Assembly (NCBI GenBank): GCA_016872495.1 | Contig: VGZT01000001.1 | Span: forward strand, 62,001 to 126,000 | Direction of reading: 5' to 3' | Length of the DNA: 64,000 bases | DNA from: SAR202 cluster bacterium | GTDB taxonomy: Bacteria; Chloroflexota; Dehalococcoidia; Lucifugimonadales; Lucifugimonadaceae | Made by a program: the position numbers and the translations under genes | The notes under the pieces: generated by a model | Databases searched by the model: none | What the model saw: the letters and a program-made list of their open reading frames with translations, nothing else | Told to the model about the DNA's origin: nothing | Shown: positions 39,436 to 62,313 of the stretch, piece by piece | How positions within the stretch are numbered: the first letter of the stretch is position 1 | Layout: each line of letters begins with the position of its first letter

Positions 39436-40800
39436 CTACCCGGCCAGCGCGGACTTGATCGCGTCGAGTAGCTCCGCTGTCTCTTCCGGCAGAACGGTGC
39501 GCGGATCGAACAGGACTTCGTCGGCTTCGATCCGGGCCACCACCGGGCGCCCGGCCCGGCGCAGCCGGCCCACGAATGCCTCCGCTGAGCCGGGTGGCCT
39601 GATCGCCAGGACATGGGTTGGCAGCGTCTCGTCGGGCAGGCTGCCGCCGCCCACCGTTGACTTGCTGGCCCGGACCGTGGAGCCGCCGGAGCCGATCGAG
39701 GACTTCCATTCTTGAGCCCGCGCCTTGAGCGCGGAGGGGGTCGCCGAGATCATCTGCCACACGGGAAGGTCCGCCTCGGCGGTCCCACGCGAGTAGCTGA
39801 GCAGGGTCGCCGACAACGCCGCGAGCGTGACCTTCTCGACGCGTACCGCTCTGGCCAGGGGGTGTTTTGCCAGGACATCCACGTGCTTTCTTTTGCCGAC
39901 CACGATACCCGCCTGCGGACCGCCGAGCAGCTTGTCACCGGAAAAGAAGGCAAGGTCGGCGCCCTGCGCCACGCTCTCCTGGACCATGGGTTCGCGCGGG
40001 AGGCCAAAACGGGAGGTGTCGAGCAGGGCCCCGCTGCCAAGGTCGTGGAAAGCCACGAGTCCCCGCTCGGAAGCGAGCCGGGACAGGACCTGGATATCGG
40101 TCGAATGCGTGAAGCCGCGAATAGCGAAGTTGCTCTGGTGCACCTTCAGCAGGACTGCGGTTTCCGGCGTAATCGCGGCCTCGTAGTCAGCTACGTAGGT
40201 CCGGTTCGTCGTTCCTACCTCAATGAGCCGTGCGCCGGACTGGCGCAGGACGTCCGGGACCCTGAAGCCGCCGCCGATCTCAACCGCCTCGCCACGCGAG
40301 ACCACCACCGCCCGGTCCCTGGCGAAGGCGGTGAGCCCCAGCATCAACGCGGACGCGTTGTTGTTTACGACCAGGCCGGCCTCGGCGCCGGTCACCTGCG
40401 CCAGGAGTGAGGAGATGTGGGCCTGCCGCGAGCCCCTCCGGCCGGTCTCGAGGTCCAGCTCGAGGTCCGTGTAGCCGGCGGCAACCTCCGCCGCAGCTTC
40501 GACCGCCGCCCGGCTCAGCGGGGCTCGGCCAAGGTTGGTGTGCAGGATTACCCCGGTCGCGTTGATCACGCGCCGGGGCCACGGCGCCAGCGCGCGGTGA
40601 ACGCGGCTGAGGACGGCGTTCACCAGTTCCTCGATCTGTGGCGCCTCGCCGCCGGACTTGACGCCCGCCCTGGCCAGCTCAAGCTCGAGGCGGACCATTC
40701 CGGCCACGGCGTCATGCGAATAGGCGGCGGAGAGGTCACTGATCTCGCGCACGCCGAGGAGGCGTTCTACGCTCGGGAGCGACCGCAGGCGAGAATTCAT
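39436..40800 (-). CDS. selA: L-seryl-tRNA(Sec) selenium transferase
   Basis: SelA converts Ser-tRNA(Sec) to Sec-tRNA(Sec) using selenophosphate and PLP. The 454-residue protein shows RSLPSVERLL at the N-terminus, NATGVILHTNLGRAPLS, LVVNNNASALML, LLKVHQSNFAIRGF, FHDLGSGALLD and the PLP lysine in FFSGDKLLGGPQAGI. GAGGTGA precedes the ATG. It heads an operon with smr and rarA. Its presence confirms that the in-frame TGA codons of fdhA and the SelW-like gene are decoded as Sec. selB and selD, which often accompany it, are not in the window. Confidence 0.95.
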   Translation of the reverse strand: MNSRLRSLPSVERLLGVREISDLSAAYSHDAVAGMVRLELELARAGVKSGGEAPQIEELVNAVLSRVHRALAPWPRRVINATGVILHTNLGRAPLSRAAVEAAAEVAAGYTDLELDLETGRRGSRQAHISSLLAQVTGAEAGLVVNNNASALMLGLTAFARDRAVVVSRGEAVEIGGGFRVPDVLRQSGARLIEVGTTNRTYVADYEAAITPETAVLLKVHQSNFAIRGFTHSTDIQVLSRLASERGLVAFHDLGSGALLDTSRFGLPREPMVQESVAQGADLAFFSGDKLLGGPQAGIVVGKRKHVDVLAKHPLARAVRVEKVTLAALSATLLSYSRGTAEADLPVWQMISATPSALKARAQEWKSSIGSGGSTVRASKSTVGGGSLPDETLPTHVLAIRPPGSAEAFVGRLRRAGRPVVARIEADEVLFDPRTVLPEETAELLDAIKSALAG

Positions 40801-59155: not shown

Positions 59156-59758
59156 TTATACCCGGTGGACCGGCCCCGAACCGGGCGCGTGCGGGTACCT
59201 GCGCTCGTAATCGGAACGGAGCATGCCCAGGATCACCGAGTTGAAGCGGGCGCCTTGATGCGGCCGGCTCTGCCGCAACGTGCCCTCATGCACGAAGCCC
59301 ACGTGCTCGAACATCTCCCTGGCGTGGGTGTTGTACTCGGGCACGTCGACCCAGGCACGGTAGAGCCCTAGCTTCGTGAAGATGTGCTCGAGAAGCGCGA
59401 TGGTCGTGCTGGTTCCATAGCCGCGATGCCAGAGATCCTTTCGTCCGATCAGGATCGAAAGCTGGGCGTCGCCAAGGGCTTCGTCGATCGCAAGCTGTGC
59501 CTCGCCTACGTGTTCGCCGGAAGACGTACGGACCGAGAAGATGTCACGGTGCGGCTGATGGTCCGGCGATTTGAATACCCGGTTCCACTCTTCTTCGTTC
59601 GCATCGACCATCTTCGCGGGGTCGTACCCGAGATGTGCCGGTTCGCCGTAGGTGTACCGTCCGAACCAGCTTTCCGATATCTCCTGGTCCTGCAACCAGG
59701 TAGCGACGCGCGCAATATCCTCGCGGGTTACTTCGGTCAATTGAACCTCGGGTAACAT
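59156..59758 (-). CDS. GNAT/RimJ-type N-acetyltransferase
   Basis: A 200-residue GNAT protein. It shows ILIGRKDLWHRGYGTSTTIALLEHIF, the acetyl-CoA loop (RGYGT), and the typical RimJ C-terminus MFEHVGFVHEGTLRQS. AAGGAGG lies upstream of the ATG. It is transcribed divergently from the SelW-like gene. Its target (an amino-terminal, antibiotic or small amine) is not known. Confidence 0.9.
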   Translation of the reverse strand: MLPEVQLTEVTREDIARVATWLQDQEISESWFGRYTYGEPAHLGYDPAKMVDANEEEWNRVFKSPDHQPHRDIFSVRTSSGEHVGEAQLAIDEALGDAQLSILIGRKDLWHRGYGTSTTIALLEHIFTKLGLYRAWVDVPEYNTHAREMFEHVGFVHEGTLRQSRPHQGARFNSVILGMLRSDYERRYPHAPGSGPVHRV

Positions 59759-59944: not shown

Positions 59945-60238
59945 ATGATCGAGGGAACCGTCCAGGCCGAGATCTTCTACTGCGTGCCCTGAGGCTACCA
60001 CCTCAACGCTGGCTGGATGCTCAGCGAACTGTATTCGGCGGGTGGGGCCGACGTGGCGATCAAGATCACCCCCGGTGATGCCGGCGTCTTGAAGCTGTAC
60101 CTCGATGGTGATCTGGTCTACGACAAGAACGCGGAAGGCAACCAGACGCCGTCTCTTACCAGGGTCAAGGAGTTGAAGGCGCTCCTCAGGGAGCGAATAG
60201 CAGCGAAGAAGGCGGCGGCGGGGCCGCGCGCCCACTAA
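59945..60238 (+). CDS. Selenoprotein W/Rdx family protein with in-frame TGA (Sec at codon 16)
   Basis: The frame from the ATG at 59945 to the TAA at 60236-60238 contains a TGA at 59990-59992. With it read as Sec the protein has 97 residues and begins MIEGTVQAEIFYCVPUGY. This is the CXXU thioredoxin-like redox motif of the SelW/SelT/SelH/Rdx family, which has a short beta-alpha-beta fold and reduces disulfides or oxidises thiols. The C-terminal half (VAIKITPGDAGVLKLYLDGDLVYDK) fits the family, as does the following helix. A hairpin lies at the right distance after the TGA. Without recoding only 15 residues would be made, so ordinary annotation would miss the gene. A closely similar gene with Cys in place of Sec follows. 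Confidence 0.9.
60007..60026 (+). promoter_or_regulatory. Candidate bacterial SECIS hairpin of the SelW-like gene
   Basis: CGCTG (60007-60011) pairs with CAGCG (60022-60026), extended by GC/GC with one bulged T, leaving the apical loop TGGAT, which begins 21 bases after the TGA. The G in the second loop position and the distance fit the bacterial SECIS rules as I know them. Confidence 0.7.
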
Positions 60239-60248
60239 GGAGATGACC

Positions 60249-60542
60249 ATGCCCAGGATCGGAAAGATCACCGTCGACATCGAATACTGTGTGCCCTGCG
60301 GCTACCAGAACCTCGCTGCGTGGGCCGTCAGCGAGTTCTTCCAGGCCGGCGGCACCGACGTCGCCCTGAGCCTGACCCCGGGTGACGCCGGTGTCTTCAA
60401 GGTCAAGTTCGGCGACGAGATCGTGTGGGACAAGAAGGCGATGGGCGGCAAGTCGCCCGACATCGCCCAGATGAAGGAACTGAAGGCGAAGCTGAAGAAC
60501 AAGCTCGAAGCCATCAAGCAGACTGCCGTGGCGGCCGGATAG
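60249..60542 (+). CDS. SelW/Rdx family protein with CXXC (Cys paralogue)
   Basis: A 97-residue Rdx-family protein; the redox motif is EYCVPCGY (C14 and C17) and the C-terminal half reads VALSLTPGDAGVFKVKFGDE IVWDKK in two parts. It is the Cys counterpart of the Sec-containing gene just before it: the two are similar in the motif, in the TPGDAGV block and in total length. The ATG at 60249 has AAGGAG six bases upstream; an ATG at 60243 lies too near to that ribosome site. It ends with a strong terminator. Confidence 0.92.
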   Translation: MPRIGKITVDIEYCVPCGYQNLAAWAVSEFFQAGGTDVALSLTPGDAGVFKVKFGDEIVWDKKAMGGKSPDIAQMKELKAKLKNKLEAIKQTAVAAG

Positions 60543-60566
60543 CCCTCGGCATACCAGGCACTCCGG

Positions 60567-60597
60567 GAGGCGGCCTGTCGAGGCCGCCTCTTCATTT
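60567..60597 (+). terminator. Rho-independent terminator of the SelW-like pair
   Basis: GAGGCGGCC and GGCCGCCTC form a perfect 9-bp stem with the loop TGTCGA (60567-60590), followed by TTCATTT. It lies 24 bases after the stop of the second gene. Confidence 0.8.
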
Positions 60598-61221: not shown

Positions 61222-62313
61222 TTGAAAGCCGCAGTCCTTTACAAGGCAGGAGAGCCTCTGAGGGTCGAAGAGGTCCGCATGGACCCGCCCAAGAATGGCG
61301 AGGTGTTGATTCGCATCGGCGCCGCTGGCATATGCGCAAGCGACCACCACGTGATGCAGGGGACCGCGTCATTCCCGTTGCCGATCGTACTGGGCCATGA
61401 AGGCGCGGGCACGGTCGAGCAGGTCGGCCCTGGGGTCAGTCGCGTCAAACCTGGCGACCGGTGCATTTTGTCGTTTGCCCCCAGCTGCGGGTGGTGCCAC
61501 TACTGCCGGACTGGGATGGGGCAGTTGTGCGCGACCCATCGAGCGACAGGTTCCAGGATGTTCGACAACACCGTCCGATTGCACGCCGGCAAAGAGGACC
61601 TCTTCCAGATGCAGAAGCTGGGAGTGTTCGCGGAGCAGGCGGTGGTGCCGCAGGAGGCCTGCTTCCCGATCCCTGCAAAAGTCCCGATGGAGGTCGCCGC
61701 GCTCATCGGTTGTTGCGTGACAACCGGGGTCGGCGCACTGATCAACCGGCACGGGGTCGAGGCCGGCGCGACGGTCGCCGTGTTCGGTTGCGGGGGCGTC
61801 GGGTTGAACGTGATTCAGGGCGCACGGCTGTTGAGCGCCGCCAAAGTCATCGCGGTCGATATCCATGATCACAAGCTGGAGTTCGCTTACCGGTTTGGCG
61901 CCACGCACATCGTCAATGGCAAGCGCGAGGACGCGGTGGAAGCGATCCGTCGGGTAACCGGAGGCGGCGCCGACTTCGCGGTTGACAGCTTTGGCAGCCA
62001 GGTGACCACCGGCCAGGCGATCAAGGCGATCAAGACCGGGGGCACGGCCCTGATCGTCGGACTCGCGGCCGCCGGCGAGACCGTGCCGGTCGACATGGTC
62101 GACCTGGTGCGAAACCAGAAGACGGTTGTCGGCAACTATTACGGGGGTGTGAGCCCACAGGAGACGTTCGGCAAGCTGGTCGACTTCTACCTGGCCGGCA
62201 AGGTCGACGTCGAGGGCCTGATCACACGCTCGTACCCGCTGGAGAAGATCAACGAAGGGTTCGAGGCGCTCGCACGTGGCGAAGACGGACGAGGTGTTCT
62301 TGTCTTCAAGTGA
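61222..62313 (+). CDS. Zinc-dependent alcohol dehydrogenase (MDR family)
   Basis: A 363-residue medium-chain dehydrogenase. The catalytic zinc ligands are in ICASDHHVMQG and GHEGAGTVEQVG, the structural zinc Cys in CGWCHYCRTGMGQLC, and the NAD motif is VAVFGCGGVGLNVIQGARLL. The TTG at 61222 has GGGGG upstream and gives a natural start (LKAAVLYKAGEPLRVEEV). The sequence resembles class III/mycothiol-type and aryl-alcohol enzymes. The substrate is unknown. Confidence 0.9.
   Translation: MKAAVLYKAGEPLRVEEVRMDPPKNGEVLIRIGAAGICASDHHVMQGTASFPLPIVLGHEGAGTVEQVGPGVSRVKPGDRCILSFAPSCGWCHYCRTGMGQLCATHRATGSRMFDNTVRLHAGKEDLFQMQKLGVFAEQAVVPQEACFPIPAKVPMEVAALIGCCVTTGVGALINRHGVEAGATVAVFGCGGVGLNVIQGARLLSAAKVIAVDIHDHKLEFAYRFGATHIVNGKREDAVEAIRRVTGGGADFAVDSFGSQVTTGQAIKAIKTGGTALIVGLAAAGETVPVDMVDLVRNQKTVVGNYYGGVSPQETFGKLVDFYLAGKVDVEGLITRSYPLEKINEGFEALARGEDGRGVLVFK

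Follow-up and report, generated by a model that had tools for sequence, protein, structure and literature searches.

A predicted selenocysteine-containing SelW protein encoded beside an old cysteine paralog in a SAR202 cluster bacterium: probably a retained and diverged, possibly non-redundant pair

Why would a bacterium keep a selenocysteine (Sec) protein when a cysteine (Cys) version of it is encoded next door? The retention of Sec by bacteria despite the existence of Cys versions is usually studied via engineered Sec/Cys changes or by comparison of distant species. The question is raised here by two adjacent genes in a window of 64,000 nucleotides, the whole stretch of DNA analyzed, from the genome of a SAR202 cluster bacterium. 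The two genes appear to form one unit that encodes thioredoxin-fold oxidoreductases of the SelW-like (Rdx) type. With a probability of roughly 0.78, we read the locus as a Sec-decoded SelW gene and an old Cys paralog that have both been kept and have diverged, and that may be non-redundant.

Both genes lie on the plus strand. The Sec-type gene (59945..60238) starts with ATG at 59945, ends with TAA at 60236-60238, and has a sole in-frame TGA at 59990-59992. When this TGA is translated as Sec, the product has 97 residues with a CVPU site and begins MIEGTVQAEIFYCVP-U-GYHLN.... The predicted Sec codon aligns with the second Cys of the CxxC motif in Cys homologues. The Cys-type paralog (60249..60542) runs from ATG at 60249 to TAG at 60540-60542, likewise encodes 97 residues, and has CVPCG at 60288-60302. 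An alternative start at ATG 60243 would yield 99 residues, but ATG 60249 appears better placed relative to the Shine-Dalgarno sequence AAGGAG (60237..60242, plus strand), which overlaps the TAA stop codon of the upstream gene. A standard gene caller would overlook the Sec gene or predict it in shortened form. Under translation table 11 the first gene is indeed reduced to a remnant, as the preliminary description of this DNA had said, but the remaining open reading frame at 60017-60238 encodes 73 residues and not 74.

Both proteins pass the curated cut-off of the Rdx family PF10262 (22.6 bits), the Sec copy with 48.8 bits (E 8e-13) and the Cys copy with 59.3 bits (E 4e-16). For TIGR02174 (SelT/SelW/SelH; cut-off 34.2 bits), the Cys copy scores 36.5 bits and the Sec copy 30.9 bits, which is slightly under. 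The two proteins share about 45% identity. The AlphaFold model of the Sec copy, with Cys substituted for Sec, has a mean pLDDT of 91.7 and adopts the SelW fold, in which the CxxU/CxxC site is located between strand 1 (E6-13) and helix 1 (H19-36). Its best solved matches in Foldseek are bacterial SelW-related structures, with TM scores of ca. 0.70-0.75 by query length; mouse SelW ranks below them. The two adjacent 97-residue Rdx proteins of the preliminary description, which had proposed an alignment with the Rdx/SelW families, are confirmed in coordinates and in PF10262 membership: both genes encode complete Rdx/SelW proteins, with CVP-TGA-G (59981-59992) in one and CVPCG in the other at the equivalent catalytic site.

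The TGA at 59990-59992 is very probably decoded as Sec at a CxxU site, with Cys in the downstream paralog, as had been proposed; the evidence comes from the Sec machinery, from relatives with TGA, and from a hairpin behind the codon. The host genome (98% complete) encodes SelA (TIGR00474, 535 bits), SelB (345 bits), SelD (377 bits), and a tRNA-Sec with anticodon TCA (70 bits). The gene of the selenocysteine synthase SelA lies within the window (39454..40788, minus strand), ca. 19 kb upstream of the pair. The host SelD gene (L136, G000:C38:5060-5983) has an in-frame TGA of its own at SCAG-U-AG and is a second selenoprotein gene in the genome. Rdx genes are present in 115 of the 149 genomes searched, and the loci fetched from relatives have TGA in 74 cases and Cys in 48, aligned at one and the same codon. 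As 74 Rdx genes of related genomes have TGA exactly there, its position at the catalytic codon is not due to chance. Similarity runs on past the TGA in every relative examined, contrary to the option, also raised in the preliminary description, that the TGA terminates translation throughout the related genomes. In the window's family, Rdx genes of the TGA type occur in 32/50 SelA-positive and 2/22 SelA-negative genomes, the p value of 2e-5 being indicative only because the genomes share ancestry; both of these SelA-negative genomes are incomplete assemblies. In Campylobacter jejuni, Ribo-seq and proteomics demonstrated that the UGA of SelW is read through to a full-length Sec protein (PMC11955535).

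The bacterial SECIS-like hairpin spans 60007..60026 on the plus strand, i.e. +18 to +37 relative to the UGA. It has a 7-bp stem, the loop UGGAU at 60014-60018, and a bulged U at 60021. The apical loop starts 21 bases past the TGA, the distance previously noted for it. The hairpin has a folding energy of -10.4 kcal/mol, compared with a mean of -5.0 kcal/mol for synonymous codons, and 0/300 draws are as low. This excess stability over synonymous codons is seen among Sec copies (n=74; mean z -1.88; p 0.05 or less in 39/74) and small among Cys copies (n=48; mean z -0.40; p 0.05 or less in 5/48), the z values of the two sets differing with a Mann-Whitney p of 1.4e-11. Hairpins with 4 bp or more and GG in the loop are found in 62/72 distinct Sec copies versus 6/48 Cys copies. 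Nucleotides 25-29, counted from the first base of UGA, are UGGAU in 64/72 distinct Sec sequences, although this loop by itself is no proof, as UGG doubles as the codon of a conserved Trp. The covariation score is 0.47 versus 0.25 in shuffles, none of 500 shuffles scoring as high. Pairs maintained through two-sided changes account for 21 cells versus 5.9 in shuffles, and four pairs covary. We infer that SelB and Sec-tRNA(UCA) decode the UGA as Sec with the aid of this in-frame hairpin, a case whose demonstrated part consists of the machinery, the conservation, and the covariation.

A SECIS-shaped hairpin is also located past the Cys codon of the window's paralog (60312..60335, plus strand; 9 bp, bulged U, loop UGGGC), with p 0.037 against synonymous codons. 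Both this copy and that of the genus-mate, in the window's genus g1, have such a structure (p 0.037 and 0.01), which is absent from most other Cys copies; outside g1, the loop of most Cys copies is without GG. Since these two g1 Cys copies fold too, the hairpin alone does not separate Sec from Cys in the window genome. The simplest reading is that the hairpin after the window's Cys codon is a possible remnant of a Sec ancestor; chance is the alternative at p 0.037. In a deep group of Sec SelW genes (CVPUDYVPQAV; L043, L050, L097, L098, and L100), the hairpin differs in position and the loop is AGUUA, AGUUG, or GUU, perhaps representing another SECIS type.

The Sec and Cys copies look like non-redundant isozymes, judging from their residues near the active site. 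A His directly after UGY, three residues past Sec, is found in 33/33 Sec copies of the family and in 0/37 Cys copies, which have Ala or Gln at this position. Two positions beyond, Leu is fixed in the Cys copies and Val is usual in the Sec copies. Both copies are under purifying selection, and the Cys copy looks to evolve several-fold more slowly. Specifically, in genus g12 the Sec copy shows the higher dN in 120/120 genome pairs (median 0.121 vs 0.025), a contrast that rests mainly on dN, the genome pairs being not independent and dS often near saturation. In the proposed course of events, both copies were kept and then diverged, with the Cys copy becoming much more constrained. As a tentative assignment of function, both may be thiol oxidoreductases with non-redundant roles, the Cys protein providing a selenium-independent core activity and the Sec protein a faster or differently targeted selenium-dependent one. 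If the two forms have distinct activities, lineages can lose either member.

Alternatively, the Cys copy might be no more than a backup, standing in for the Sec copy under selenium scarcity. Methanococcus maripaludis is an established case of switching between Sec and Cys forms with the supply of selenium (PMC11097638), and SelA-negative genomes that retain Rdx usually retain the Cys copy. We consider this explanation rather unlikely, because a backup is expected to be similar to and less constrained than the protein it replaces, whereas the Cys copy is the more constrained one in all pairs of g12 and differs at fixed positions close to the active site. In addition, the Cys gene follows the Sec gene in g1, and the overlap of the stop codon of the first with the Shine-Dalgarno sequence of the second suggests joint expression. 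Selenium supply alone does not account for retention either, since in g10 and most of g6 the genomes have SelA and only the Cys copy was found.

The overlap of stop codon and Shine-Dalgarno sequence recurs in the genus-mate G001 (TAGGAGG), and translational coupling of the two genes is possible. In a stronger version, the pair in the window's genus would be a selenium-sensing translational unit, in which the proportion of two functionally distinct SelW proteins would depend on Sec supply: ribosomes inserting Sec would reach the TAA that overlaps the Shine-Dalgarno sequence and restart, and ribosomes stopped at the UGA would not. We regard this model as speculative and improbable. Predicted local folding at the Shine-Dalgarno sequence gives weak 2-bp pairing only, and its sequestration by a hairpin switch is therefore not claimed. 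Directly 3' of the Cys gene, a terminator-like G+C-rich hairpin of 12 bp (60565..60592, plus strand; z -3.6) is more stable than all of 200 shuffles; a consensus terminator scan did not call it as a terminator. An Rfam scan of the region found no RNA family above chance.

The pair occupies a slot with conserved surroundings. Most genomes of the family have a reversed GNAT acetyltransferase gene, the Rdx slot, a Zn-dehydrogenase gene, and nuoA-D, in this order. In the window, as identified by Pfam and synteny, the left neighbor is the divergent GNAT gene (59156..59758, minus strand) and the right neighbor is a Zn-dependent alcohol dehydrogenase-like gene (61225..62313, plus strand) followed by nuoA-nuoC. 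An operon with the Zn-dehydrogenase gene was set aside, given a gap of ca. 150-180 bp in most genomes and the terminator-like hairpin after the Cys gene. In g1 (2 genomes) the Sec gene comes first in the slot and the Cys gene second, and in g12 (16 genomes) the order is the opposite. The slot is occupied by a Sec gene alone in g2, g3, and g9, and by a Cys gene alone in g6, g10, and g11. The genomes of g3 and g11 have the other copy at a different locus; the Sec copy alone was found in the genomes of g2 and g9, and the Cys copy alone in those of g6 and g10. These slot states would be explained by an ancestral pair whose members were repeatedly lost or relocated and whose order changed once. Among the matches listed from ca. 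300 genomes of the phylum, there is no adjacent Sec/Cys pair beyond that of the window's own genome.

The preliminary description suggested exchange between the two proteins or heteromeric redox partners. Electrons could pass between Sec and Cys proteins in a heteromeric or sequential pair, in line with the adjacency of the genes, in both orders, in two genera and with the overlapping translation signals in g1. An obligate pair, however, should rarely separate, and many relatives have a single copy (Sec in g2 and g9, Cys in g6 and g10) or split loci (g3 and g11); exchange is further disfavored by the fixed differences between the copies. The idea thus finds no support, and we consider it very unlikely. 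The Sec-only genomes together with the Cys-only SelA genomes (g10 and most of g6) fit separate roles better than an obligate pair.

The age of the pair was inspected in a tree that comprises 96 Rdx proteins and was built after masking of the catalytic column. The included Cys copies of the window's family, from g1, g3, g6, g10, g11, and g12, form one clade with support of 99/87, and a reduced tree recovers it with 85/91. The clade is nested in a larger group whose remaining members are nearly all Sec. A genus-level duplication was rejected, with p-AU 0.037 for the window copies and those of the genus-mate as one clade and 0.023 for the other paired genus. As the Cys copies form a single clade and duplication within genera is rejected, the pair predates the split of these genera. 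The Cys gene is hence seen as an old paralog that most likely arose from a Sec-containing ancestor in the family by an active-site change from Sec to Cys. This direction appears the most economical one; it rests on the nesting in a tree of 94 columns in which many forks are open and whose root was not inferred by the method. A recent tandem duplication at this locus, with a subsequent swap from Sec to Cys, would fit the adjacency of two similar proteins with CVPxGY and TPGDAGV in common. It is nonetheless highly unlikely in view of ca. 45% identity, the grouping of the Cys copy with Cys copies of other genera, and the rejected joining of copies by genus. Hence, of the tandem duplication with Sec/Cys swap suggested earlier, the adjacent Sec/Cys paralogs stand and the recent local origin does not, the reversed order in g12 and the single-copy slots also arguing against it. 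Gene conversion of short segments between the copies may have occurred. One Cys copy that belongs to a different family of the order (L045 1501-1701, genome G108) is placed inside the Cys clade of the window's family, which may reflect either horizontal transfer or a misbinned contig.

That the TGA is a true stop, where standard translation ends, leaving a pseudogene or a 15-residue peptide and the 73-residue remnant, is extremely improbable given purifying selection over the entire Sec reading frame (dN/dS ca. 0.1 in g12 and 0.26 in g1), a TGA and hairpin conserved across the order, and the complete Sec machinery.

Selenoproteins of the SelW type, SECIS elements, and conversions between Sec and Cys have all been described before, and in marine metagenomes SelW-like proteins form one of the commonest selenoprotein families (PMC2398784). 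The Sec gene resembles bacterial SelW-like selenoproteins (PF10262, TIGR02174) in fold, length, CxxU site, UGA immediately followed by a SECIS-like hairpin, and G in the small loop; the window differs by the adjacent Cys paralog. Reported Sec-to-Cys conversions with remnant SECIS-like structures (PMC1794560) are similar in that a Cys form derives from a Sec form in a Sec-decoding organism, which is also the most likely history here, and the SECIS-shaped hairpin past the g1 Cys codon may be a remnant of this kind. In those cases the Sec form was lost, whereas the window keeps both side by side. A 2026 review describes Sec-to-Cys changes as rare and as confined mainly to FdhA and SelD (PMC13188914). 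Methanococcus likewise has Sec and Cys versions of the same enzymes in one genome (PMC11097638), but these are archaeal enzymes of energy metabolism used according to selenium supply, different from small SelW-like proteins of adjacent bacterial genes. Neighboring Prx and SelW genes (PMC2398784) also pair a SelW selenoprotein gene with another redox gene; there both are selenoproteins of different families, and here one Sec and one Cys member belong to the same family. In the literature searched, we found no description of an ancient Sec/Cys SelW pair whose members have been retained side by side and have diverged in function. The locus offers a natural comparison of Sec and Cys within a single two-gene unit at a single syntenic position, and related genera carry just the one or the other. 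Few small soluble redox pairs are as directly testable for what selenium contributes, and this one was kept through the genus split.

Other arrangements were observed among the relatives. In genome G095 of the same order (L057 3844-4451), a Sec SelW gene is followed by an Rdx-fold copy without either catalytic residue, which has YSLSDGY where YCVPUGY is expected and is possibly a non-catalytic partner. Two distinct Sec SelW genes, of the CVPU and CHxU/CQDU types, are located at separate loci in four genomes: L101/L102 (G120), L111/L112 (G140), L117/L118 (G084), and L127/L128 (G141).
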